Of a stretch of DNA of 64,000 nucleotides, positions 14,509 through 28,504 are shown piece after piece. Every line of letters starts with the position of its first letter. The stretch's first letter is position 1. The notes beneath the pieces were generated by a model. It was not told the DNA's origin. It saw only the letters and a list, made by a program, of their open reading frames with translations, and searched no databases. A program made the position numbers and the translations under genes. Origin of the DNA: Tahibacter soli (GTDB taxonomy: Bacteria > Pseudomonadota > Gammaproteobacteria > Xanthomonadales > Rhodanobacteraceae); NCBI RefSeq assembly GCF_025717065.2, contig NZ_JAOVZO020000017.1, forward strand, positions 124,001 to 188,000, written 5' to 3'.

Positions 14509-14820
14509 CCGGCTCTTAGCAGGTGCAACCCGGGTTCGTACGAAAAGTAGCGTAGAACTTTTCGCCCTGCTAGAGTCGCAACGCCTTCACGGGAGTCCAC
14601 ACATGAACTACGCGCCTTTGTCGCGAGTTGCAGGAATCCTGTTTGTCCGCCGCCGCGCCGTCGCCTTGTCCCGGGACAGCGCGGGCCGCGCGGCCTCGCG
14701 CGCGCTCGCATACCGCACGCAAACGTAACGCATCGCTACGCGACGACGCGGCGCCGCGAACGCCGCGCGTCGAGCGGTCGCCGAAGGCGGCCATCGTTGT
14801 CCTCACTGGGGAGGGTTCGA
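14509..14820 (+). other. Intergenic region upstream of the M36 peptidase gene
   Basis: This 312-bp gap contains an 8-bp perfect inverted repeat at 14541-14564 (CGAAAAGT, 8 bases, ACTTTTCG). It also contains a 41-codon open frame at 14603-14728 with its own ribosome site, and GGGGAGGG right before the peptidase ATG. The promoter of the peptidase gene must lie here, but no clear -35/-10 pair was found. Confidence 0.45.
14603..14728 (+). CDS. Possible 41-residue leader or small protein
   Basis: The ATG is preceded by GGGAG with a 7-base gap, which is a better ribosome site than chance placement would usually give. The frame encodes a short Arg- and Ala-rich peptide (MNYAPLSRVAGILFVRRR at its start) and ends in TAA 92 bp before the peptidase start. 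No homologue is recognised. It may be an unstable leader peptide or an accident in GC-rich DNA. Confidence 0.25.
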   Translation: MNYAPLSRVAGILFVRRRAVALSRDSAGRAASRALAYRTQT

Positions 14821-17800
14821 ATGAACGGATCAAGATCGTACCGGTGGTCGCCATGGCTGATGGCGGCGGCGTTCGCCGGTGCCGCGCACGCGGCGCCGCC
14901 GGCGCTCGACGCGCGCACGCAATGGCTCGGCGGCGACGGGCCGGCGGCGAAGTCCGACGCCGTGCCGCTTGCGCCGGCCACGCGCGCGGGCCGCCGCGCC
15001 GCGTTGATCGACGCGGCCGGCCGGGGCACGGGTACGCAGCGTGCCGATCTCGTGCCGGCGGCCGTGCACCAGCAGGCCGGCGCCGCGTCGGTCGTGCAGT
15101 ACCGGCAGGAAATCGACGGCGTCGAGGTGTACCGCGCGCGCCTGTCGGTGCTGCTCGGCGCCGACCTCGCGCCGCGCGCGTCCGGCGGCGCCCTGGCGGC
15201 GAAAACCGGGCCGGTCGCAGGCGCCGCGTTCCGCCTCGACGCCGCGCAGGCGCTGGCCGCCGCGTTGCCGGGCGTCGATGCGTCGCTCACCGCCGCGCCG
15301 CGCGAGGTCGGGCAGGCCGGCCGCTACACGCGGTTCGCGCTGGCCGCGACGGCGGAATTCGCGCCGGGCCGTCCGGCCCGCATCAAGCGCGTGTGGTATC
15401 CGACCGCCGAGGGTCTGGAACCCGCGTACTACGCCGAGGTGACCGGCACGAAGCGCGGCGCGGACCGGCCGATCGGCCTCGCGCTCGTCGTCTCGGCCGA
15501 CGACGGCCGTACGCTGGCCTCGCACAGCCTCATTCACGACGCGCTGCCGTTCTCGTACCGCGTGATGGCCGATGCGAACGGCAAGCCCTACTTCGATCCG
15601 TACGGTTTCACGAACCCGCATCCCACCGGCCTGCCGGACGGCTGGCTGCCGACCGTGCAGGCGCCGATGCATCTGCTGCCGCGCGTGCACGGCGGCATCA
15701 GCACCGGCGATCCGTGGCTCGCCGACGACGCGACGCAGACGCGCGGCAACAACGTCGACGCTTTTTTCAACGCCGAGACGTTCGACGTCGACGGGTTCTG
15801 CGACTACAACGGCTGGGGCCCCGGGTTCAACGCGGCCGAGGGCGACTTCCGCGCGCCGGTGACGGGCCTGCGCCGTTTCGACTACGCCTACGACGTCGAC
15901 CTGCACGCGAGCGACTACTCGCAATGCGACGACGCGCCGGTGCCGATTCCGGTCGGCGACACGCAGCTCAACGCGAAAATCGTGCAGATGTTCTACATGA
16001 CGAACTGGCTGCACGACCTGTTCTACGACTTGGGCTACGACGAGGAAGCCGGCAACCCGCAGGCGAACAACTACGGCCGCGGCGGCATCGAGAACGATCC
16101 GCTGATCGTGCATGCCGCCTACGACACGACGTTCACATTCGCGCCGGCCGACGGCGAAAGTCCGTCGGTGACCTACGGCTTCAACACGTGGACCGACCGT
16201 CGCGACGTCAGCGCGCTCGACTTCGGCGTGCTCGCGCACGAATGGGCGCACACGATGTTCGGACGCCTCGTCGGCACGTCGTTCTATCTCGGCCAGGAGG
16301 GCGCGCTGAACGAGGCGATCGCCGATTTCGTCGGCATGTTCCTGATGGTGCGCGACCAGGACCGCTATCTCGACGGCCCGGTGGCGTTCAACGGCAAATA
16401 CGCGGTCGGCGCGTACATGAACGGCAACTACAGCTATCCCGGCGACCCGCTGCCGCCGGTGGGCACGCCGGGCTGGCCCGACAACACGTACTACCACGGC
16501 ATCCGGCGCTTTCCGTCGACGATCGATCTCGCCGCGAACCCGCTGACGTTCAAGAACATCGGCGTCGATCACCCGGTGCCGCAAAGTGCCAATGCGTACG
16601 ACTGGAAACAGCGCTCTTTGCTCAATTCGGAAATCCACACCGCCGGCGAGGTGTACACGGCGGCGCTGTGGCAGTGCTCGCGCAACATTCTCGCCGCCGC
16701 GCCGCGCGCGCGGTTCGACCGCACGCACAAGCAGTTTCTCGCGTGGCTCGTCGCCGGCATGAAGCTGACGCCGCCCGAGCCGACGTACACCGAGGCGCGC
16801 GACGCGCTGCTGATGGCGATACGCGCCGACGACACGCTCGACTATCTGCGCTGCCGCGCCGGCTTCGCCGCCCGCGGCATGGGCGCCGGCGCGATACCGC
16901 CGCCGCGCCATTCGTTCGGCCTGCGCGGCACGGTCGAAAGCTTCGACGATGCCGAACGGGCGCTGACGGTGATTTCGACGAAGCTCGAGGAAGTCTCCGG
17001 CGCCGACGGCGACGGCGTGCTCGATCGCGGCGAAGTCGGCCGTCTCGTCGCGACGGTGCGCAACACCGGTTTCTCGCCGCTGTCGCACGTGTCGATCGTC
17101 GTGCTGCCGCAGTTCGGCCGCTACGCGCTGCCGGGCGGCATCGCCGCCGGCGACGTGACCTTGCAGCCGGGCGAGGAACGCACGCTGACGCTGCCGTTGA
17201 ACGTCGCCACGTCGACGCCGTCGGCAACGCTCGCGATCGACGTGCAGGCGCTCGCGCTGCAGTTTCCGCCGGTCGCCACGCACCGCGAAACGCCGATCGT
17301 CGTGAACTACGACCTCGTGCGCGACAGCGGCACCGACGCGCTCGCGGCGGCGTCGACGTTCGATGCGAACTGGACGCGCGAGTTCACCGATCCGTCGAAC
17401 CACGGCTGCGCGCGCGGCATGTGTTCGGCCGACACGACCGTACCCGGCGCCTACGCCGACATGCTCGACTGGCAGCGCGTGACGCACCTGGGCGAAACCG
17501 CGTACCGCATCGGCGACGAACGCCTCACGTTCGATACCGGCATCGCGACCGCGGCGTTCCAGACGCTGCCCGCGGGCCCGGTGTCGATCACGCTGCGGCA
17601 CGACTACGACTTCACGCGCAACCAGCCGTCGCCGACGGTGCCGCAGATCGCCAACGGCGTCGGCACGGTGCAGATCGAAGTGAACGGCGGCGGCTGGATG
17701 CCGATCGCGCCGTTCGTCGTGTCGGGCCAATGGCAGTTCACCGGGACCTCGGGCGGCTGGCGCGAGGACACGATCGTGCTCAATCCGCCGCTGATCGCCG

Positions 17801-17940
17801 GCCGCACGCTGCGGCTGCGCCTGCACGCGCGCGCGCCGAGCATCTTCTATCCGGACGACGCGCACTGGGCGATTTCGCGCGTCACGATCAACGGGGCGGC
17901 GACGCCGGTGTTCAGCACGGTGCACCCGGACGGGAGCTGA
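14821..17940 (+). CDS. Secreted M36 family (fungalysin-type) zinc metallopeptidase
   Basis: A 1039-residue exported peptidase. It has a signal peptide (WLMAAAFAGAAHA, cleavage near residue 25) and an FTP-type propeptide to about residue 280. The M36 catalytic domain has zinc ligands H473 and H477 and catalytic E474 in LAHEWAHTMFGR, and the third ligand E498 in GALNEAIADF. The C-terminal 350 residues are beta-rich: a CARDB-like repeat (VTLQPGEERTLTLPLN) and a jelly-roll-like end. The ATG at 14821 follows GGGGAGGG; an upstream in-frame start at 14797 has no such site. A strong terminator follows. Confidence 0.9.
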   Translation: MNGSRSYRWSPWLMAAAFAGAAHAAPPALDARTQWLGGDGPAAKSDAVPLAPATRAGRRAALIDAAGRGTGTQRADLVPAAVHQQAGAASVVQYRQEIDGVEVYRARLSVLLGADLAPRASGGALAAKTGPVAGAAFRLDAAQALAAALPGVDASLTAAPREVGQAGRYTRFALAATAEFAPGRPARIKRVWYPTAEGLEPAYYAEVTGTKRGADRPIGLALVVSADDGRTLASHSLIHDALPFSYRVMADANGKPYFDPYGFTNPHPTGLPDGWLPTVQAPMHLLPRVHGGISTGDPWLADDATQTRGNNVDAFFNAETFDVDGFCDYNGWGPGFNAAEGDFRAPVTGLRRFDYAYDVDLHASDYSQCDDAPVPIPVGDTQLNAKIVQMFYMTNWLHDLFYDLGYDEEAGNPQANNYGRGGIENDPLIVHAAYDTTFTFAPADGESPSVTYGFNTWTDRRDVSALDFGVLAHEWAHTMFGRLVGTSFYLGQEGALNEAIADFVGMFLMVRDQDRYLDGPVAFNGKYAVGAYMNGNYSYPGDPLPPVGTPGWPDNTYYHGIRRFPSTIDLAANPLTFKNIGVDHPVPQSANAYDWKQRSLLNSEIHTAGEVYTAALWQCSRNILAAAPRARFDRTHKQFLAWLVAGMKLTPPEPTYTEARDALLMAIRADDTLDYLRCRAGFAARGMGAGAIPPPRHSFGLRGTVESFDDAERALTVISTKLEEVSGADGDGVLDRGEVGRLVATVRNTGFSPLSHVSIVVLPQFGRYALPGGIAAGDVTLQPGEERTLTLPLNVATSTPSATLAIDVQALALQFPPVATHRETPIVVNYDLVRDSGTDALAAASTFDANWTREFTDPSNHGCARGMCSADTTVPGAYADMLDWQRVTHLGETAYRIGDERLTFDTGIATAAFQTLPAGPVSITLRHDYDFTRNQPSPTVPQIANGVGTVQIEVNGGGWMPIAPFVVSGQWQFTGTSGGWREDTIVLNPPLIAGRTLRLRLHARAPSIFYPDDAHWAISRVTINGAATPVFSTVHPDGS

Positions 17941-17993: not shown

Positions 17994-18884
17994 TCAGACG
18001 TCCTTCGCCACGAGCTTCACGACGCTCGAGAAATCGAGGCCGCCGTTGCCCGCGCGGCTGTTCATCGCGTACAGGTTGCGCGCCAGTTCGCCGAGCGGGA
18101 TCGACGCGCCGACGCCCATCGCCGCTTCGGCGGCGAGGCCCAGATCCTTGAGCATCAGATCGTTGCCGAAACCGCCGGTGTAGCCGCGCGACGCCGGCGC
18201 GTTCGCGTGGACGCCCGGCCACGGATTGCACACCTCGGTCGCCCAGCTGCGGCTCGTGCTGACGGCCATCATCTGCGACAGCACGTTCGGATCGAGCCCG
18301 TGCGCCACGCCCAGCGCGATGGCTTCGCCGGTCACCGCCATGATCGCGCCGAGCGCCATGTTGTTGCACAGCTTGGCGACTTGGCCCGCGCCGCTCGCGC
18401 CCACGTGGAAAATGTTCTTTCCCATCGCCTGCAGCACCGGGAGCGCACGCTCGAGCGCCTGCGCTTCGCCGCCGACGATGAAGGTCAGCGTGCCGGCCGC
18501 GGCACCGGCGGTGCCGCCGGACACCGGCGCGTCGATCATCGCGACGCCGCGCGCGGCGGCCGACTCGGCCACTTTTTTCGCCGACGCCGGTGCGATGGTG
18601 CTGCTGTCGATGACGAGCGCGTCCGGCGACAGCGTCGCCAGCAGGCCGTCGTCGCCGAGGTAGAGCCGCTCGACGTGGCGGCTGGCCGGCAGCATCGAAA
18701 TCACGACCTCGGCGCCGGTCGCCGCGTCGGCCGCGTTCGCGGCGGCGTGTGCGCCGGCGGCAACGGCGGCGTCTACTGCGGCGGGCACGAGGTCGAAGAC
18801 GCGCACGGCATGGCCGGCCTTGACGAGGTTCGCGGCCATCGGGCCGCCCATGTTGCCGAGGCCAATGAAAGCGATGCGGCTCAT
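17994..18884 (-). CDS. mmsB: 3-hydroxyisobutyrate dehydrogenase
   Basis: A 296-residue NAD-dependent beta-hydroxyacid dehydrogenase that oxidises 3-hydroxyisobutyrate to methylmalonate semialdehyde in valine degradation. It has the Rossmann motif IAFIGLGNMGGPMAANL at the N-terminus, the substrate-binding segment DAPVSGGTAGA and the catalytic lysine in GQVAKLCNNM. It is the last gene of the valine operon and its ATG overlaps the upstream stop as ATGA. Confidence 0.93.
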   Translation of the reverse strand: MSRIAFIGLGNMGGPMAANLVKAGHAVRVFDLVPAAVDAAVAAGAHAAANAADAATGAEVVISMLPASRHVERLYLGDDGLLATLSPDALVIDSSTIAPASAKKVAESAAARGVAMIDAPVSGGTAGAAAGTLTFIVGGEAQALERALPVLQAMGKNIFHVGASGAGQVAKLCNNMALGAIMAVTGEAIALGVAHGLDPNVLSQMMAVSTSRSWATEVCNPWPGVHANAPASRGYTGGFGNDLMLKDLGLAAEAAMGVGASIPLGELARNLYAMNSRAGNGGLDFSSVVKLVAKDV

Positions 18885-20047
18885 GCGGAAGTCTCCGTGT
18901 CGGCGCGCAGGTCGGCGAGCGGATGCGCGTCGCCGGCCCACGGCGGATTGAGGAAGGTCTCGGCCCAGGCCGGCGTGGCTTCGACCAGCGTGGACGGGTT
19001 CCAGCGCGGGTTGCGGTCCTTGTCGATCAGCAGCGCGCGGATGCCTTCGGCGAAATCGCCGTGCGCGGCGCATTGCAGCGAGACGACGTATTCGAGCCGG
19101 AACGTGTCGGCCAGCGAAAGCGTCGCCGCGCGGCGCTGCAGCTCGTAGCCGAGCCGCGCCGAGCCCGGCGCGCCGGCGGCGAGCGCGGCTTGCGCGTTGC
19201 GCAGCCACGCATCGTCGGGTGCGGCGCTCGCGATCGCCGCGACGACGGTCTCCAGATCGTCGTGTCCGCACAGCGCGGCGACGAGTTCGGCATGCCGCTG
19301 CAGCGGACCGGCCGCGGCCGGTTGCGCGAACGACTGCAGCAGCGCGCTCAGGCGCTCGTGGTCGTCGTCGGCGTTCTTACTCCAGTCGACGGCGAGCAGC
19401 GCGGCCGTCGTTTCGTCGCGTCGCGCATCGGCGATGCAATAGTCGGCGAGTCCGGCACGGATCGCGTCGCCGGCATCGAGCGGCGCTCCGGTCAGCGCGA
19501 GAAACAACCCCGCGCGATCCGGCACGCGGTTGAGCAGCCAGCTGCCGCCGACGTCCGGATACAGGCCGATCGCGATCTCGGGAAACGCGAGCTTCGAACG
19601 CTCGCCGACCACGCGATGGCTCGCGCCCGACATCAGGCCGATGCCGCCGCCCATGACGATGCCGTGGCCGAAGCACAGGATCGGCTTTTTATACGTGTGG
19701 ATGCGATGGTCGAGCCGGTATTCCGTCGCGAAGAAATCGCGCGCGTAGACGTTGTCGCGCGGATCGCGGCTGCCGCTGTCCCGGTACTCGCGCATGCCGC
19801 GATACAGCCCGTGCAGATCGCCGCCGGCGCAGAACGCTTTTTCGCCCGCGCCTTGCAGCACGACGACGGCGATGCCGTCGTCGTTCGCCCAGGTGGCGAG
19901 CTGCGCGTCGAGCAGCCGCGCCATGGCCAGCGAGAGTCCGTTGAGCGTCTTCGGCGCATTCAACGTGGCGATGCCGATGCGCGAGACCCCGCCGGCCGCG
20001 CGCTCCTCGAACAGCACCGGCGCCGGTTCGGTCGTGACGTCGTTCAT
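18881..20047 (-). CDS. 3-hydroxyisobutyryl-CoA hydrolase
   Basis: A 388-residue crotonase-fold thioesterase that releases 3-hydroxyisobutyrate from its CoA ester. The oxyanion-hole segments are AFCAGGDLHGLYRG and GHGIVMGGGIGLM, and ALPEIAIGLYPDVGGSW has the usual FPEIAIGLYPDVG form of HIBCH rather than of ordinary enoyl-CoA hydratases. The length matches the hydrolase subgroup (about 380) and exceeds that of hydratases. The ATG at 20047 overlaps the stop of the upstream hydratase (ATGA). A start 12 bases earlier is possible but would break that coupling. Confidence 0.9.
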   Translation of the reverse strand: MNDVTTEPAPVLFEERAAGGVSRIGIATLNAPKTLNGLSLAMARLLDAQLATWANDDGIAVVVLQGAGEKAFCAGGDLHGLYRGMREYRDSGSRDPRDNVYARDFFATEYRLDHRIHTYKKPILCFGHGIVMGGGIGLMSGASHRVVGERSKLAFPEIAIGLYPDVGGSWLLNRVPDRAGLFLALTGAPLDAGDAIRAGLADYCIADARRDETTAALLAVDWSKNADDDHERLSALLQSFAQPAAAGPLQRHAELVAALCGHDDLETVVAAIASAAPDDAWLRNAQAALAAGAPGSARLGYELQRRAATLSLADTFRLEYVVSLQCAAHGDFAEGIRALLIDKDRNPRWNPSTLVEATPAWAETFLNPPWAGDAHPLADLRADTETSA

Positions 20048-20841
20048 GCGTTCTTCCATTGCGGTGCGCGCTTTTCCAGAAATGCCGCCACGCCTTCGAT
20101 CTGATCGGCCGTGTCGAACAAGTCGACGAACGCCTCGCGCTCGCCGACCAGCGCCGTCGCGTGCGACTGCGTGCGCGTCGCCTGCACGAGCGCCTTGCAC
20201 GCGGCGACGCTGGTCGGGCTCTGTTTGGTCGCCTTGTGCGCCCATTCGAGCGCGCGCGTCTTCGCTTCGCCCTTGCCGACGACTTCCTCGACGAGGCCGA
20301 TGCGCAGCGCGGTCGGCGCGTCGACGCGCTCGCCCAAGAGGATCATGCGCTTGGCCCAGCCTTCGCCGACCAGTCGCGGCAGATTCTGCGTGCCGCCCGC
20401 GCACGGCAGCAGGCCGACCGTCGCCTCCGGCAGCGCCACCTGCGCCTGTTCTTCGATGATGCGCAGATCGCAGGCGAGGGCGCATTCGAGTCCGCCGCCC
20501 ATCGCGTAGCCGTTGATCGCGGCGATGCTGACGCCGCGAAACGCGCTCAGCGTCTCGAACGCTTCGCCGAAACGGCGCGCGGCCTCGCGCGCCAGGGCCT
20601 TGTCGCCGTCGGCGAACTGCTTGAGATCGGCGCCCGCGGAAAAGAACTTCTCGCCCTCGCCGGTGACGACGAGCGCGTAGATCTCGCGGTCGGCATTCAG
20701 CGCGCGCACGAGATCGCGCAGCGCCGACAGGCTGTCGCGCGTGAAGGTGTTCGCCGGAGGGTTGCTCAGCGTGACGATCGCGGTATGGCCGTCGATGTCG
20801 AGCCGGAGCCCCGTCCACGTCTTGTCGGTGTAGCCGCTCAT
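20044..20841 (-). CDS. Enoyl-CoA hydratase
   Basis: A 265-residue crotonase-family protein, by position the methacrylyl-CoA hydratase of valine degradation. It carries KFFSAGADLKQF and NGYAMGGGLECALACDLRI for the oxyanion hole and LPEATVGLLPCAGGTQNLPRL with the catalytic glutamate region. It overlaps the genes on both sides by ATGA. Confidence 0.9.
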   Translation of the reverse strand: MSGYTDKTWTGLRLDIDGHTAIVTLSNPPANTFTRDSLSALRDLVRALNADREIYALVVTGEGEKFFSAGADLKQFADGDKALAREAARRFGEAFETLSAFRGVSIAAINGYAMGGGLECALACDLRIIEEQAQVALPEATVGLLPCAGGTQNLPRLVGEGWAKRMILLGERVDAPTALRIGLVEEVVGKGEAKTRALEWAHKATKQSPTSVAACKALVQATRTQSHATALVGEREAFVDLFDTADQIEGVAAFLEKRAPQWKNA

Positions 20842-22028
20842 CGCAATTCCTCGTCCGTATTCAACAGGTGGCGCGCGACGATCACGCGCATGATTTCGTT
20901 CGTGCCTTCCAGGATCTGGTGCACGCGGCAGTCGCGCAGCAGGCGTTCGATCGGGTATTCGCGGATGTAGCCATAGCCGCCGTGCAGCTGCAGCGCGTCG
21001 TTGCAGATCGAAAAACCGGCGTCGGTCGCGAAGCGCTTGGCCATCGCGCACCAGACCGTCGCGTCGGACGTGCGCGCGTCGAGCTTGCGCGCGGCGGTGT
21101 GCACCATCTGCCGCGCGGCGACGAGCTGCGTCGCCATGTCGGCGAGCTTGAACTGCAGCGCCTGGAATTCGGCGAGTCTGCGCCCGAACTGGCGGCGCTC
21201 GCCGAGGTAGCGCCGCGCGGCGTCGAGCGCGCCCTGCGCCGCACCGAGCGAACACGCGGCGATGTTGATGCGCCCGCCGTCGAGCCCCTTCATCGCGATG
21301 CGAAAGCCTTCGCCCTCGTTGCCGACGAGGTGCGACACCGGCACGCGCACGTCCTCGAACGTGACGCCGCGCGTGGGCTGGCTGTTCCAGCCGAGTTTTT
21401 CTTCCTTGCGGCCGTAGACGATGCCCGGCGTGTCGGCCGGCACGGCGAACGCGCTGATGCCGGCCGCGCCGTCGCCGCCGGTGCGCGCCATCACCACGAG
21501 CATGTCGGTGGCGCCGGCGCCGGAAATGAACGCCTTGCTGCCGTTCAGCACGTACGTGTCGCCGTCGCGCACCGCGCGGGTTCTGAGCGAGGCCGCGTCC
21601 GATCCCGAGCCCGGTTCGGTCAGGCAGTACGACGCGAGCTTCGCGCCGGATGCGAGCGGCGGCCCCCACGCGTCGCGCAGCGCGGGCCGCGCATGCGCGG
21701 TCAGCATCCACGTCGCCATGTTGTGGATGCTGACGAACGCGGCGGTCGACGGATCGACCGCGGCGAGTTCCTCGAACACGATGGCGGCGTCGAGCCGCGT
21801 CAACCCGGTGCCGCCCGCGATCGCGTCGACGTACAGCCCGCAGAAACCGAGTTCGCCGGCCTTGGCGATCGTCGCGCGCGGAAACGTGCCTTCGGCGTCC
21901 CAGCGCGCCGCGTGCGGCGCGAGTTCGGCCTGCGCGAAGTCGCGCGCGGCCTCGCGATACGCGAGCTGCTCCTCGTCGAGCGCCGGCGTCGCCGGTGCCG
22001 TCGCGCGGATGTCCATGACGGCGGCCAT
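20838..22028 (-). CDS. Acyl-CoA dehydrogenase (isobutyryl-CoA dehydrogenase by context)
   Basis: A 396-residue FAD-dependent dehydrogenase that by context oxidises isobutyryl-CoA to methacrylyl-CoA and passes electrons to ETF. Family signatures are ASYCLTEPGSGSDAASL, the C-terminal FAD segment DALQLHGGYGYIREYPIERLLRD and the catalytic glutamate in HQILEGTNEIMRVI. The ATG at 22028 shares one base with the mmsA stop (TGATG). Substrate is inferred from the operon; 2-methylbutyryl-CoA could also be used. Confidence 0.9.
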   Translation of the reverse strand: MAAVMDIRATAPATPALDEEQLAYREAARDFAQAELAPHAARWDAEGTFPRATIAKAGELGFCGLYVDAIAGGTGLTRLDAAIVFEELAAVDPSTAAFVSIHNMATWMLTAHARPALRDAWGPPLASGAKLASYCLTEPGSGSDAASLRTRAVRDGDTYVLNGSKAFISGAGATDMLVVMARTGGDGAAGISAFAVPADTPGIVYGRKEEKLGWNSQPTRGVTFEDVRVPVSHLVGNEGEGFRIAMKGLDGGRINIAACSLGAAQGALDAARRYLGERRQFGRRLAEFQALQFKLADMATQLVAARQMVHTAARKLDARTSDATVWCAMAKRFATDAGFSICNDALQLHGGYGYIREYPIERLLRDCRVHQILEGTNEIMRVIVARHLLNTDEELR

Positions 22029-23551
22029 CACGTGAGGCTGATCGTGGTGTTGACCCCGAGATGCCGCGTCTCGTCGTCGAACCAGCGCGCCGTGACGGTC
22101 TTGGTCTGCGTGTAGAACGCGACCGCCTGCTTGCCGTACGGACCGAGGTCGCCGAGCTTGGACGCGCGCGATCCGGTGAACGAGAACATCGGCACCGGCA
22201 CCGGAATCGGCACGTTGATGCCGACCTGCCCGACGTCGATGTCCTCCTGGAACCGGCGCGCCGCCGCGCCGCTCTGCGTGAAGATCGCGGTGCCGTTGCC
22301 GTTCGGATTCGCGTTGACGAGTTCGATCGCGGCGTCGAGCGAGTCTGCGGCGAGAATCACGAGCACCGGACCGAAGATCTCCTCGTCGTAGATGCGCATG
22401 CCCGGCTTCACGCCGGAGAAGATCGTGGGACCGACGAAGTTGCCGCGCTCGTACCCGGGCACCGCCGGCGCGCGGCCGTCGAGTTCGAGCGTCGCGCCTT
22501 GCTCGATGCCGCTGGCGATGAGTGATTCGACGCGTTCGCGCGCCGCGCACGAGATCACCGGACCGACGTCGGTGCCGGGCTCGGTGCCTGCGTTGACCTT
22601 GAGCGTTTTCGCTTTTTCGACGAGTTGCGGAATCCACGATTGCGCATCGCCGACGAGCACCGCGGTCGACGCCGCCATGCAGCGCTGGCCGGCCGCGCCG
22701 AACGCCGCGCCGACCATCGCGTTCAAGGTCTGCTCGCGGTTCGCGTCCGGCAGCACGACGGCGTGGTTCTTCGCGCCCATCATGCACTGCACGCGCTTGC
22801 CGGCCTGCGAGGCGCGACGATAGACGTGCGTGCCGACGCGCGTGGAACCGACGAACGAGATCGCCTTGATGTCCGCGTGGTCGCAGATCGCGTTGACGAC
22901 GTCCTCGCCGCCGTGGACGACGTTGAGCACGCCCTTCGGGATGCCGGCGTCGAGCGCGAGCTCGACGAGGCGCATCGTCACCATCGGATCCTGTTCCGAC
23001 GGTTTGAGCACGAACGTGTTGCCGGTGGCGACGGCCATCGGAAACATCCACAGCGGAATCATCGCGGGGAAATTGAACGGCGTGATGCCGGCGCACACGC
23101 CGAGCGGCTGCTGCAAGGTATACGTATCCACGCCGCCGGCGACGTTGTTGGCGATCTCGCCGAGCTGCAGGTTGCCGATCGCCGCGGCATGCTCGACGAC
23201 TTCGAGGCCGCGAAACACGTCGCCTTCGGCATCGGGCAGCGTCTTGCCCTGCTCGGCGGTCAGGATCGCGGCCAGCTCGCCCATATGCGCGCGGATCAGC
23301 TGCTGGTATTTCAGGAACACGCGGGCTCGCGCGCCGATCGGCGTCTTGCGCCAGGTCGCGAAGGCGCGCCTGGCGGCGGCCACCGCCGCATCGATCTCGT
23401 CCGGCGTCGCGAACGGCACGCGTGCGAGCACTTCCTGCGTCGCGGGATTGACGACGTCGCGCCAGTGCGACGTTTTCGATTCCACGAACTCGCCGTCGAT
23501 CAACAGCTTGACGGTCGCGACGTCGGTCGCGGCGTGATGGGGCTTGTACAT
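22028..23551 (-). CDS. mmsA: Methylmalonate-semialdehyde dehydrogenase (CoA-acylating)
   Basis: A 507-residue aldehyde dehydrogenase that turns methylmalonate semialdehyde into propionyl-CoA, CO2 and NADH, the last step of valine degradation. It has the NAD-binding [23 protein letters not shown], and the catalytic cysteine in [14 protein letters not shown]. It is the first gene of the operon. The ribosome site is GGAG about 13 bases from the ATG. The leader upstream holds a cobalamin riboswitch on the same strand with no gene between. Confidence 0.94.
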
Positions 23552-23695
23552 GATGTCTCGTCTCCGTATCGCTCACCCGCGAAGCGGATGTGCGGGAGCA
23601 AGACAAGTCGAATCGAAGCGGCGGACGCGCGTCGAATCAGCTCGTCCGGTTGCCCGCCGCAACACCCGAGGAGAACGCCGCACGCGGCGTCCACC
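23552..23695 (-). promoter_or_regulatory. Expression platform between riboswitch and mmsA
   Basis: The octamer CGGGTGTT (minus strand, 23661-23668) is an exact complement of AACACCCG in the L5 loop of the aptamer (23779-23786). That is the arrangement expected for the L5-L13 kissing loop that reports ligand binding. It lies among alternative pairings of GCCGC and GCGGC repeats (acgccgc, gcggcgt, gcggcgg). A further hairpin lies at 23571-23599, just above the mmsA ribosome site. No T-rich terminator is obvious, so translational control, Rho-dependent control or RNA remodelling are all possible. Confidence 0.65.
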
Positions 23696-23889
23696 ACAGG
23701 CCGGTCTCCGGGCTTGCGAGCGATGCGTCGCGCATCACCCCGGCACCTTCCCGCGATACGTCGCAGTGGTTTTCGAGCCGGGTGTTCTCGCCTACCGTTG
23801 CGGGGGCAGCGCCGGCATGGGATCGACTCGATCCGCACCGGCTTCCCGTTTCACCCTGCGCACCGGAATGGCGGCGGCAGGGCACCTGT
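23696..23889 (-). promoter_or_regulatory. Cobalamin riboswitch aptamer
   Basis: Read on the minus strand the conserved core is complete: AGGTGCC after the P1 strand ACAGG, then CAGGGTGAAACGGGAAGCC, GGTGC, GCTGCCCCCGCAACGGTA, CCACTG, GGGAAGG, GGTGATG and the B12 box AAGCCCGGAGACCGGCC at 23699-23715. The 3' P1 strand CCTGT closes the domain. Adenosylcobalamin or a related corrinoid is the known ligand of this class. The only downstream gene on that strand is mmsA, so it should control valine degradation. Confidence 0.93.
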
Positions 23890-23938
23890 AGCCGGTCGAG
23901 TGTAGGCCGGCGGACATCGACGCGACAAGCGCGGCGGA

Positions 23939-24952
23939 TCAGTTCACCGCGATCGCGACCTTGCCGAAGTGGCTGCCCGCGTCGAGATACGCATACGCAT
24001 CGCGCGCTTCGCCGAACGCGAACACGCGGTCGACGACCGGACGGATGCGATGCAGCGACACGAAGCGCGCGAGGTCTTCGAGCATCGCGAGGCTGCCGAC
24101 GTAGATGCCGGTCACGTGCTTGGCGCCGCGGATCAGCGTCATCGGGTCGATGTCGCCGCCGAAGCCGCTGACGCCGCCGACGATCGCGATCGTGCCGCCC
24201 ATGCGCGTCGCCGCGACCGAGCGGCGCAGCGTGCCGGTGCCGCCGACTTCGACGACGAGATCGACGCCTTCGCCGTTCGTCGCGCGCAGCACGTCTTCGT
24301 GCCATTCCGGCGATGTGCGGTAGTTGATCGTCACGTCGGCGCCGAGGCTGCGCGCGCGTTCGAGCTTCGCGTCGCTGCCCGAGGTGATCAGCGTGCGCAG
24401 GCCGGCGGCCTTCGCCAGCTGCAGCGCCCAGATCGACACGCCGCCGGTGCCGAGCAGCAGCACGCTGCCGCCGGTCGGCACGCGGCCTTCGACGAACAGC
24501 GAATTCCACGCGGTCGCGCCGGCGCAGGTGAGCGTCGCCGCCTCGGCGTAGTCGAGATGTTCGGGCACCGCGAACAGGGCGTCTTCGGAAACGACGATTT
24601 CTTCGGCGAGCGCACCGTCGATCAGGCCGCCGAACGACAGCGCCGACTTCGCCGGCGTCTGGCGGCCGTCGATCCAGTTCGCGAAAAACGTCGTCGCAAC
24701 GCGGTCGCCGGGCTTGAATCGCGTGACGCCCGGGCCGACGTCGATCACGTCGCCGGCGCCGTCGGACGCGGGAACCACGGGTTTGACGTCGCCGCCGAGG
24801 TAGCTGCCGCGAATCACCATGAGATCGCGGTAGTTCAGCGCCACGGCGCGGATGCGCACGCGCACCTCGCCGGGACCCGGCGCGACGCTCGCGCGGTCGA
24901 TCGCCACGATGCCGTCGAAGTTCTTGCCGGGGTGTACGTGATAAGCCTTCAT
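23939..24952 (-). CDS. Zinc-type MDR alcohol dehydrogenase / quinone oxidoreductase family protein
   Basis: A 337-residue medium-chain dehydrogenase/reductase. It has the GroES-like N-terminal half (ALNYRDLMVIRGSYLGG) and a Rossmann half with LLLGTGGVSIWALQLAKAAG. The catalytic zinc cysteine and the cysteine-rich structural zinc loop are not evident, which fits the zinc-free quinone-oxidoreductase branch. The substrate is unknown. It is divergent from a LysR-type regulator that probably controls it. The gene ends 50 bp before the cobalamin riboswitch on the same strand. Confidence 0.85.
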   Translation of the reverse strand: MKAYHVHPGKNFDGIVAIDRASVAPGPGEVRVRIRAVALNYRDLMVIRGSYLGGDVKPVVPASDGAGDVIDVGPGVTRFKPGDRVATTFFANWIDGRQTPAKSALSFGGLIDGALAEEIVVSEDALFAVPEHLDYAEAATLTCAGATAWNSLFVEGRVPTGGSVLLLGTGGVSIWALQLAKAAGLRTLITSGSDAKLERARSLGADVTINYRTSPEWHEDVLRATNGEGVDLVVEVGGTGTLRRSVAATRMGGTIAIVGGVSGFGGDIDPMTLIRGAKHVTGIYVGSLAMLEDLARFVSLHRIRPVVDRVFAFGEARDAYAYLDAGSHFGKVAIAVN

Positions 24953-26811: not shown

Positions 26812-27582
26812 TCACTTCACGTCGAACCCGTACTTCTCGAACACCGCGCGTGCGGCCGGCGTGCGCAGCAGCGCGTGCAGCTTCTTCGCTTCGTCCGACG
26901 CATGGCCGCGGATCAGCGCGAGCGGGTACACGATCGCCTCGTGGCTGCCGGCCGGAAACGTCGCGACGACGCGTACGGCGGGTTCCGAGACCGCGTCGGA
27001 GCGATACACGATGCCGAGCGGCGCCTCGCCGCGCACGACGAAATTGAGCGCCGCGCGCACGTTGTCGGCCGCGACGACGCGCGATTCGACGGCGGCCCAC
27101 ATGCCGAGCTTCGTCAGCGCCGCCTTGCCGTATTTGCCGGCCGGCACGCTGCTCGGTTCGGCCATCGCGAGGCGCCCGTCGCCGAGCGCGGGCAAGAGCG
27201 ACGCGCCTTCGCGCAAGTCGGCGGCGATCGTGCTGTCCTTCGCCGCGACCAGCACGAGCGCGTTGCCGACGAGGTCGACGCGCGTGCCGGCTTCGACGAG
27301 GTCTTTCTTCGCGACGTAGTCCATCCAGTCCTTGTCGGCCGAGACGAACAGCGCGGCCGGCGCGCCGGCTTCGATCTGCTTGGCGAGCTGCGAACTCGCG
27401 CCGTAGCTCGTCTTGATCGTGCCGATCGCCTTGGCTTCCGGCGTTTCGAGCAGCGTGTCGAGCGCGGGCTTCAGGCTCGCCGCGGCGAAGACGATCGTGT
27501 CGTCGGCGTGCGCGGGCAGTGCCGCAACGGCGAAGATCGCTGCGGCGGCAACCGCGCGCAGGCGTCGTACGAATCGCAACAT
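26812..27582 (-). CDS. modA: Molybdate ABC transporter substrate-binding protein
   Basis: A 256-residue periplasmic protein with a signal peptide (AAAAIFAVAALPAHA). It has the ModA signature IVFAAASLKPALDTLLE, KTSYGASSQLAKQIEAGAPAALFVSAD and GIVYRSDA, so it should bind molybdate or tungstate. No modB permease or modC ATPase gene follows; the next gene is convergent and a palindromic element lies between. It lies 11 bp after a SUOX-fold gene and behind a ModE-type operator. Confidence 0.92.
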   Translation of the reverse strand: MLRFVRRLRAVAAAAIFAVAALPAHADDTIVFAAASLKPALDTLLETPEAKAIGTIKTSYGASSQLAKQIEAGAPAALFVSADKDWMDYVAKKDLVEAGTRVDLVGNALVLVAAKDSTIAADLREGASLLPALGDGRLAMAEPSSVPAGKYGKAALTKLGMWAAVESRVVAADNVRAALNFVVRGEAPLGIVYRSDAVSEPAVRVVATFPAGSHEAIVYPLALIRGHASDEAKKLHALLRTPAARAVFEKYGFDVK

Positions 27583-27593
27583 GTCGCTTTCTC

Positions 27594-28103
27594 CTATTTT
27601 GAATGCTGTGCCGGCGCCGAGCGCAGTTCGATGCGCTCGACCTGGCGCACCCAGCGGCCGGGGCGTTTTTCGTCGGGCACGACGAGGCGGAACGGCCCCT
27701 CGTGCGCGTCGAGCGGCTTGCCGTCGCGCGTGTCGGCGAGAATCGCGCGCGTCGCGCCGAACGCGGCGTCGAACTCGGCGAGCGAAAACACGACGCGATA
27801 GCCGTCGGCGGCGCCGACGACGAGGTAGCTCGCGAGCTTGCCGCCGCGCAGCGCGTCGCCGAGCGGCGCGCCGGCCTGCTTGAGCAGTTCGTCGACCGCG
27901 ACGCCCTGCCAGTTGCCGGGCTTGCCGTGGTCCGACGCCTCGATCGTCGTGCGCGGCAGCTTCGCGAGCGCCGCGCGATCGAACGACGAGGGCTTGGCGA
28001 ATTCGCCGTCGAAGTGCACGGCGGGTTCCTGTGCCGGAGCGGCACCGGTGAGGAGCAGCGCAAAGCAGAGCGCGAGTGAGCGGAAGGGCATCGGAAGAAT
28101 CAT
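27594..28103 (-). CDS. Exported SUOX-fold (oxidoreductase molybdopterin-binding type) protein
   Basis: A 169-residue protein with a signal peptide (LALCFALLLTGAAPA) and one small sulfite-oxidase-type fold: FDRAALAKLPRTTI, WQGVAVDELLKQAG, YLVVGAADGYRVVFSLAEFD and GPFRLVVPDEKRPGRWVRQV. The mature part has no cysteine at all, so the thiolate that binds molybdenum in true SUOX enzymes is absent. It is more likely a binding or accessory protein than an enzyme. It lies directly upstream of modA and directly downstream of a ModE-type box. An alternative start is the ATG at 28091. Confidence 0.82.
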   Translation of the reverse strand: MILPMPFRSLALCFALLLTGAAPAQEPAVHFDGEFAKPSSFDRAALAKLPRTTIEASDHGKPGNWQGVAVDELLKQAGAPLGDALRGGKLASYLVVGAADGYRVVFSLAEFDAAFGATRAILADTRDGKPLDAHEGPFRLVVPDEKRPGRWVRQVERIELRSAPAQHSK

Positions 28104-28107
28104 CGGT

Positions 28108-28133
28108 TCGCTATGTTCAATCGAATATAGCGA
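28108..28133. promoter_or_regulatory. ModE-type operator
   Basis: TCGCTAT and ATAGCGA form a perfect 7-bp inverted repeat around 12 bases, and the TT/AA pairs just inside the spacer extend it. This closely resembles the known ModE operator (CGCTATA-N-TATAACG type). It lies 5 bp before the start of the SUOX-fold gene and within the 56-bp gap behind modE. Confidence 0.75.
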
Positions 28134-28159
28134 GCGACCGGGACACGCGCCAGCGCGGG

Positions 28160-28504
28160 TCAGCGCACGAGGCGTTTGCGCAAGGCGGCGACGTCGGCGG
28201 CGATGGCCTGCGCGCAGGCGGCTTCGATGCGGCGGTAGCGCGAGAGCACTTCCTCGCCGAGCGGCGTCAGCTGCGCGCCGCCGCCGCCCTTGCCGCCGGT
28301 GGCGGTATCGACGACGGGTGCGCCGAAATCGGTGTTGAGCGCATCGATCAACTGCCATGCGCGGCGATAGCTCATGCGCATGCGCCGGCCGGCCGCGGAA
28401 ATCGAACCGGTGTCGCGGATGCCCTCGAGGAGGTCGGCTTTGCCGGGGCCGAGGGCGGCTTTTTCGTCGATGAGTACGCGCAGGTGGAAGGTGGGTTTTG
28501 GCAT
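28160..28504 (-). CDS. ModE-type DNA-binding protein (winged helix only)
   Basis: A 114-residue LysR-like winged-helix protein with the ModE N-terminal features GKADLLEGIRDTGSISAAGR, MRMSYRRAWQLIDALN and the Gly-rich wing GGKGGGGAQLTPLGEEVL. The C-terminal molybdate-binding Mop domains of E. coli ModE are missing, so any metal sensing must be indirect or use another site. It sits 56 bp upstream of the SUOX-fold gene and a palindromic ModE box lies between. Confidence 0.88.
   Translation of the reverse strand: MPKPTFHLRVLIDEKAALGPGKADLLEGIRDTGSISAAGRRMRMSYRRAWQLIDALNTDFGAPVVDTATGGKGGGGAQLTPLGEEVLSRYRRIEAACAQAIAADVAALRKRLVR

Follow-up and report, generated by a model that had tools for sequence, protein, structure and literature searches.

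Why a catabolic operon should stand behind a sensor of vitamin B12 is the question raised by a locus of Tahibacter soli in which a cobalamin riboswitch directly precedes mmsA and four further genes of valine degradation. The sequence-only reading of this DNA had recognized both RNA and operon, and had explained their association by the end product of the pathway, propionyl-CoA, for which the B12-dependent methylmalonyl-CoA mutase (MCM) would be needed. The first part of that interpretation, a canonical aptamer in front of a valine operon, holds and extends to relatives, but the MCM rationale does not, and a different B12-dependent partner for the operon is proposed here.

The riboswitch and its target

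In the window (the whole stretch of DNA that was analysed, 64,000 nucleotides), Rfam gives a single match that reaches its gathering score, a cobalamin riboswitch aptamer (RF00174) at 23682..23904 on the minus strand, identical with G000:C17:147682-147904. The match is complete, spanning positions 1-189 of the 189 in the model, and scores 106.3 bits (E = 1.3e-25) where 31.5 would suffice for the gathering score, so that the covariance model bears out what had been claimed by inspection, a cobalamin aptamer with core and B12 box on the minus strand directly 5' of mmsA. The interval first assigned to it, 23552-23889, overlaps the aptamer but misses 15 nt at its 5' end, and on its 3' side ends immediately 5' of the mmsA start codon (23551). 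The distance between aptamer and mmsA is 130 nt. Within the aptamer, the segment AAGCCCGGAGACC at 23703..23715 (minus strand), read from the sequence and which we take to be the B12 box, is largely invariant in the 12 Lysobacterales leaders described below, and the conserved core and B12 box show invariant columns in their alignment. The L5 loop GCCCCCGC at 23800..23807 (minus strand) is identical in 11 of these leaders, that of Stenotrophomonas mori having one extra C.

The five genes that follow are co-directional on the minus strand and almost abutting, and the earlier assignment of mmsA and four further valine genes is borne out by family models over cut-off for four of them and by domains for the fifth. 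mmsA (22028..23551) encodes a CoA-acylating methylmalonate-semialdehyde dehydrogenase (TIGR01722 MMSDH, 748.5 bits, cut-off 448.5). The next gene (20838..22016) encodes an acyl-CoA dehydrogenase with Acyl-CoA_dh domains, for which no NCBIfam model scores over cut-off and which, from its operon context, is presumed to be an isobutyryl-CoA dehydrogenase. It is followed by an enoyl-CoA hydratase (ECH; 20044..20841; NF006566, 441.2 bits, cut-off 286), a 3-hydroxyisobutyryl-CoA hydrolase (HIBCH; 18881..20047; NF004127, 336.8 bits, cut-off 274, with an ECH_2 domain) and mmsB, the 3-hydroxyisobutyrate dehydrogenase gene (17994..18884; TIGR01692 HIBADH, 394.8 bits, cut-off 291.6). The RNA itself is ordinary. 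Elsewhere in the window, an M36-type metallopeptidase gene (14797-17940), convergent to the valine operon, scores 508 bits, under cut-off, with a myxosortase-dependent M36 model, and at 26812-28504 one gene resembles, by eye, that of a molybdate-binding protein and another that of a ModE regulator.

Conservation of the switch with the operon

The sample used for conservation comprised 147 genomes of the family, including that of T. soli (6.65 Mb in 23 contigs), and an mmsA orthologue was defined by E < 1e-290. Such orthologues occur in 11 of the 147 genomes, from eight genera, and scanning their upstream regions, as had been suggested in the sequence-only reading, revealed a cobalamin riboswitch directly 5' of mmsA in all 11 (nhmmer), the aptamers of the ten other than T. 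soli scoring 97.1-115.1 bits (cmscan). Six family genomes that have only a more distant MmsA (E 1e-150 to 1e-153) are outside this count. Among 80 listed named loci with a close mmsA, three have the switch (nhmmer): L005, which is from the same genome as the family genome G089 (Luteibacter, placed by NCBI taxonomy in the Rhodanobacteraceae, order Lysobacterales), L043 from S. mori, whose aptamer is the weakest (76.3 bits), and L045 from Undibacterium crateris (109.4 bits; both cmscan). None of the 46 loci scanned with Rfam (cmscan) among the other 77 listed has a cobalamin riboswitch at mmsA. A class-wide sample of 369 genomes contains just four close mmsA genes at E 1e-220, those of T. soli and L141-L143, and the last three have no riboswitch in the flanking DNA examined.

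The gene order mmsA, acyl-CoA dehydrogenase, ECH, HIBCH, mmsB is preserved in all 12 other riboswitch loci, and the gene upstream of the switch in T. soli (23939-24952) has no match above 40% identity in the examined flanks of these 12. Since the order of the five downstream genes is kept and the upstream gene is not, the switch travels with the operon. A quick MmsA tree of 92 rows places all riboswitch rows from Lysobacterales, 12 in number, in one clade with nine switch-less rows (SH-aLRT 99), and the Undibacterium protein falls outside that clade, on a long branch. Aptamer and mmsA are separated by ~105-136 nt in the Lysobacterales loci (that of T. soli, L101-L110 and L043, 12 in all) and by ~270 nt in Undibacterium. 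These leaders offer no space for an additional conserved gene and show no trace of one, a point that had been raised as a possible objection. The Undibacterium leader is differently built, and in it a terminator-like site occurs at chance level (one found, 0.9 expected). The position of this MmsA in the tree and the different leader suggest a second origin of the mmsA switch in Undibacterium.

The leader and a putative expression platform

Two elements between aptamer and mmsA, both on the minus strand, are complementary to L5. A hairpin at 23649..23663 (GUUGC-GGCGG-GCAAC) contains GCGGnGGGC, found in 12/12 leaders and complementary to L5 bar one bulged base, and a P13-like hairpin at 23569..23582 (UCGC-GGGUGA-GCGA) contains CGCGGGT, again in all 12, within which GCGGG is complementary to L5. 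The Shine-Dalgarno (SD) sequence GGAG at 23562..23565 (minus strand), invariant in the 12 leaders and predicted to be paired, lies 3 nt after the P13-like hairpin, and a few nucleotides further in one genome (G028). In the btuB leader of T. soli, too, the two L5-complementary elements follow one another in this order, and the second is immediately adjacent to the SD. In riboswitches of this class, the ligand lets L5 dock on a hairpin beside the SD, which blocks access of the ribosome. From complementarity, L5 may pair with either hairpin of the mmsA leader. Folding gives a mean SD pairing of 0.84 versus 0.73 in 200 shuffled sets, of which five reach the observed mean, a modest excess, and about half of the shuffles match the observed pairing in six of the 12 leaders when these are taken one by one. 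For the 3' part of the leader, RNAalifold returned only a three-pair hairpin lacking covariation, and compensatory changes are absent from a stretch that does not vary.

IcmF as the probable B12-dependent partner

Of the 147 family genomes, 135 have the mutase domain PF01642, with a best score of 396.6 bits. Most of these matches lie in open frames of ~1200 residues of the type of the fused isobutyryl-CoA mutase (IcmF). Free-standing MCM genes elsewhere reach 790-802 bits (Variovorax and its kin) or 666-679 bits (two Paraburkholderia), and none of the 147 genomes, that of T. soli included, shows an MCM-like PF01642 score. This conclusion rests on PF01642, since TIGR00641 at E 1e-100, which gives 0/147, is a cut that also hides IcmF (378 bits as protein). 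For prpB, a gene of the methylcitrate cycle, 140/147 genomes exceed the cut-off, again including T. soli. The MCM link made in the sequence-only reading is thus contradicted by the gene content of the family.

IcmF is established to convert isobutyryl-CoA to butyryl-CoA with adenosylcobalamin, and isobutyryl-CoA is the first CoA ester in the breakdown of valine. The T. soli protein scores 1672.8 bits with NF045497 (cut-off 1500) and 1304.6 bits against the Cupriavidus metallidurans IcmF structure 4xc6, in two stretches (21-732 and 772-1156), and combines a B12 domain, a G-protein domain and a mutase domain in a single chain. The signature of isobutyryl-CoA mutases (ICM) is presumably given by Phe598 and Gln742 of IcmF, in place of Tyr89 and Arg207 of MCM, and the T. 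soli motifs RMFAGEG and DQAQN have Phe and Gln at those positions. Both ICM motifs are present in 20/20 sampled family loci and in 12/12 loci L156-L167, with DQGQN in Undibacterium. A fusion of mutase and G-protein also figures in the available text of PMC10356863. In T. soli and five of the ten other riboswitch genomes of the family, IcmF lies within ~3 kb of a gene of the Glu/Leu/Phe/Val dehydrogenase family, for which the best NCBIfam model in T. soli is a tryptophan dehydrogenase, below cut-off. On gene content, the B12-dependent partner of the valine operon is most likely IcmF, which would act at the entry of the pathway rather than at its end.

The distribution of the two genes is consistent with this, IcmF being present in 12 of the 13 genomes with an mmsA switch (the 11 family genomes and Undibacterium, the exception being S. 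mori), although the 11 family genomes are kin and the counts far from independent. Among 46 genomes with a close mmsA and no switch, six have an IcmF type (four of them also an MCM), 12 have MCM alone and 28 have neither. PF01642 is near-universal in the family and hence does not discriminate within it. Inside the Lysobacterales clade, IcmF occurs in 11/12 genomes with the switch versus 1/8 without (Fisher 0.0008, which is descriptive as the rows are related; L141 is not among the eight). Seven of these eight (L006, L010, L011, L014, L015, L031 and L033) have neither mmsA switch nor IcmF, and all seven have MetH and cobalamin riboswitches elsewhere, as does the eighth, L016, where there is none at mmsA (L016 is a MAG, and L006 a MAG of unknown completeness). 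The absence therefore concerns the isobutyryl-CoA branch point and not the use of B12 in general. There are counter-cases, with IcmF but no mmsA switch in L016 and in Ralstonia (L060), and with IcmF plus MCM but no switch in four more.

The exception in the other direction, S. mori, has no IcmF found and no MetH or NrdJ over cut-off, and its mmsA switch (L043:5672-5874) departs from the others in the aptamer core. The same organism has a further RF00174 site, a short way 5' of an nrdA-like gene. With none of those three enzymes over cut-off and the mmsA aptamer the weakest and altered in its core, the S. mori switches are apparent relics of a lost use of B12, in the course of decay.

The cobalamin regulon

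The genome of T. soli has four RF00174 sites, and the other three precede btuB (TIGR01779), metE (TIGR01371) and nrdA (TIGR02506), each over cut-off. MetE and NrdAB are B12-free counterparts of the B12-dependent enzymes MetH and NrdJ, both of which are present in T. soli and score above cut-off in 12 of the 13 genomes with a switch at mmsA. Because metE and nrdA carry switches in a genome that also has MetH and NrdJ, the valine operon may be seen as a third B12-free stand-in, with IcmF as its counterpart. This would fit surveys that, in their accessible text, count isozymes of B12-dependent enzymes among cobalamin riboswitch targets (PMC3766115), and work with parts from P. megaterium in which riboswitch repression of MetE was matched to the use of MetH (PMC9600662).

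A proposed choice between two isobutyryl-CoA routes

Taken together, we consider it probable, at about two chances in three, that the RNA is a cobalamin OFF switch which decides by which of two routes isobutyryl-CoA is used, the valine operon being a B12-free stand-in for IcmF. When B12 is present, adenosylcobalamin would bind the aptamer and L5 would dock on the P13-like hairpin beside the SD, lowering translation of mmsA and of the operon, and isobutyryl-CoA would be converted by the B12-dependent IcmF to butyryl-CoA, which would enter ordinary beta-oxidation. Under B12 scarcity, IcmF would be idle and the operon expressed, taking isobutyryl-CoA by the classical B12-free route to propionyl-CoA, for the methylcitrate cycle. 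The aptamer, the operon, their conservation, IcmF, the lack of a detected MCM and the metE and nrdA switches are parts of this model read from sequence; ligand binding, the OFF direction, docking and the in vivo substrate of IcmF are parts that we infer, the OFF direction from the class of the RNA, the regulon and analogy.

The rationale offered at first, that B12 controls valine flux since propionyl-CoA needs MCM, has the logic of the pathway in its favour, and Variovorax and other Comamonadaceae do have MCM alongside the valine genes. It is nevertheless hardly credible here, given the PF01642 and prpB results, the lack of a riboswitch at mmsA in all 12 MCM-only genomes and the fact that an OFF switch would work in the wrong direction, and for the Tahibacter genome it is rejected, barring an undetected MCM. 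The same PF01642 and prpB results led us to drop the idea that the operon is a B12-repressed propionate shunt like that of Caenorhabditis elegans, where, in the text available, five matching activities make up a pathway repressed by B12 (PMC4951191). No MCM was found for such a shunt to stand in for, a methylcitrate gene is present, mmsB matches 3-hydroxyisobutyrate dehydrogenase over cut-off, and malonate semialdehyde seems to be served by an MmsA paralogue encoded next to transaminase and amidohydrolase genes, which makes this reading very improbable. That second MmsA (52% identical; G000:C23, L135:3351-9085) shares a cluster with omega-aminotransferase and amidohydrolase genes, in what is probably a pyrimidine/beta-alanine route to acetyl-CoA. 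Handling of methylmalonate semialdehyde from pyrimidine or beta-alanine was accordingly discarded as a role for the valine operon and assigned to the separate cluster.

An unlikely but more serious alternative takes the same genes in the opposite sense. The IcmF reaction can run both ways, and iso-fatty acids are abundant in Lysobacterales, so that with B12 IcmF might make isobutyryl-CoA from butyryl-CoA while the oxidising operon is shut, sparing isobutyryl-CoA for iso-branched fatty acids. The gene content expected is identical to that of the OFF switch between two catabolic routes, but no tie of IcmF to lipid genes was noticed in passing and its neighbour is a gene of an amino-acid dehydrogenase family, which speaks against it. 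Finally, the riboswitch might be a non-functional or generic leader copied before mmsA, with no specific logic. Its platform resembles that of btuB, whose aptamer is the closest to that of mmsA among the others in the genome (62% vs 56%), and the S. mori switch looks like a relic; yet the core and the platform loops are preserved through eight genera, there is a second, differently built case in Undibacterium, and absence of the switch is accompanied by absence of IcmF, so that we regard this as improbable.

Relation to known systems

The closest likeness to the proposed catabolic switch is with the cobalamin riboswitches of metE and nrdAB, which are of the same aptamer class and repress a B12-free enzyme when MetH or NrdJ can work. 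The difference is that a whole five-gene route is controlled here, and that IcmF is not an isozyme but turns the common substrate over in another reaction. The btuB riboswitch is alike in having two loops complementary to L5, with the second right next to the SD as in the T. soli btuB leader, but serves transport rather than a catabolic operon. The worm shunt is B12-repressed through five matching activities but, according to the available text, bypasses an MCM of a kind not found here and is under promoter control rather than that of an RNA switch (PMC4951191).

The sequence-only reading was aware of no described case of such control, but a cobalamin riboswitch before mmsA has been published in Streptomyces griseus, with the same RNA family, the same gene and valine genes (accessible text of PMC8914203). 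It differs in belonging to an actinobacterium and in acting by premature termination of transcription, which its authors interpret as repression by cobalamin (PMC8914203). In the text available, these authors state that there were no cobalamin-related studies on valine degradation enzymes, and the main text contains neither the word isobutyryl nor mutase and names no B12-dependent partner (PMC8914203). Isobutyryl-CoA mutase genes of Streptomyces cinnamonensis are named in a reference title in PMC6759758; if S. griseus has ICM, three lineages combine an mmsA switch with this enzyme. No statement of a link between mmsA switch and IcmF was found in the literature searched, in which coverage of subscription journals is thin.

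Whether cobalamin riboswitches evolved repeatedly, in Lysobacterales, Undibacterium and Streptomyces, to arbitrate between isobutyryl-CoA mutase and the classical valine route, which would settle what isobutyryl-CoA mutases do physiologically, as a shortcut of valine catabolism avoiding propionyl-CoA, is in our judgement evenly balanced. If the proposed model is true, a metabolic branch point joins the short list of B12-dependent and B12-free alternatives switched by a riboswitch, IcmF, best known from structure and biochemistry, acquires a likely cellular job, and the switch known in front of mmsA in Streptomyces is accounted for. The valine operon switch would then be a pathway-level version of the rule of B12-free alternatives, the reason for the target being new within the literature searched.

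Other cobalamin riboswitches

Some further sites deserve mention in their own right. The nrdA riboswitch of T. soli (L138:4518-4651) is unusually short, with 134 nt and 68.2 bits, the other three in the genome being 195-223 nt. At L086:1501-2036, two adjacent cobalamin riboswitch matches on opposite strands, the second by nhmmer only, precede nrdA and a btuB-like gene. QueH is a B12-independent epoxyqueuosine reductase able to replace the B12-dependent QueG, and in another genome of the same order (G469) a cobalamin riboswitch of 90.8 bits lies directly 5' of queH (PF02677, 217.9 bits) on the minus strand (L152:656-1715), which makes this gene a candidate for a further B12-free stand-in under B12 control.
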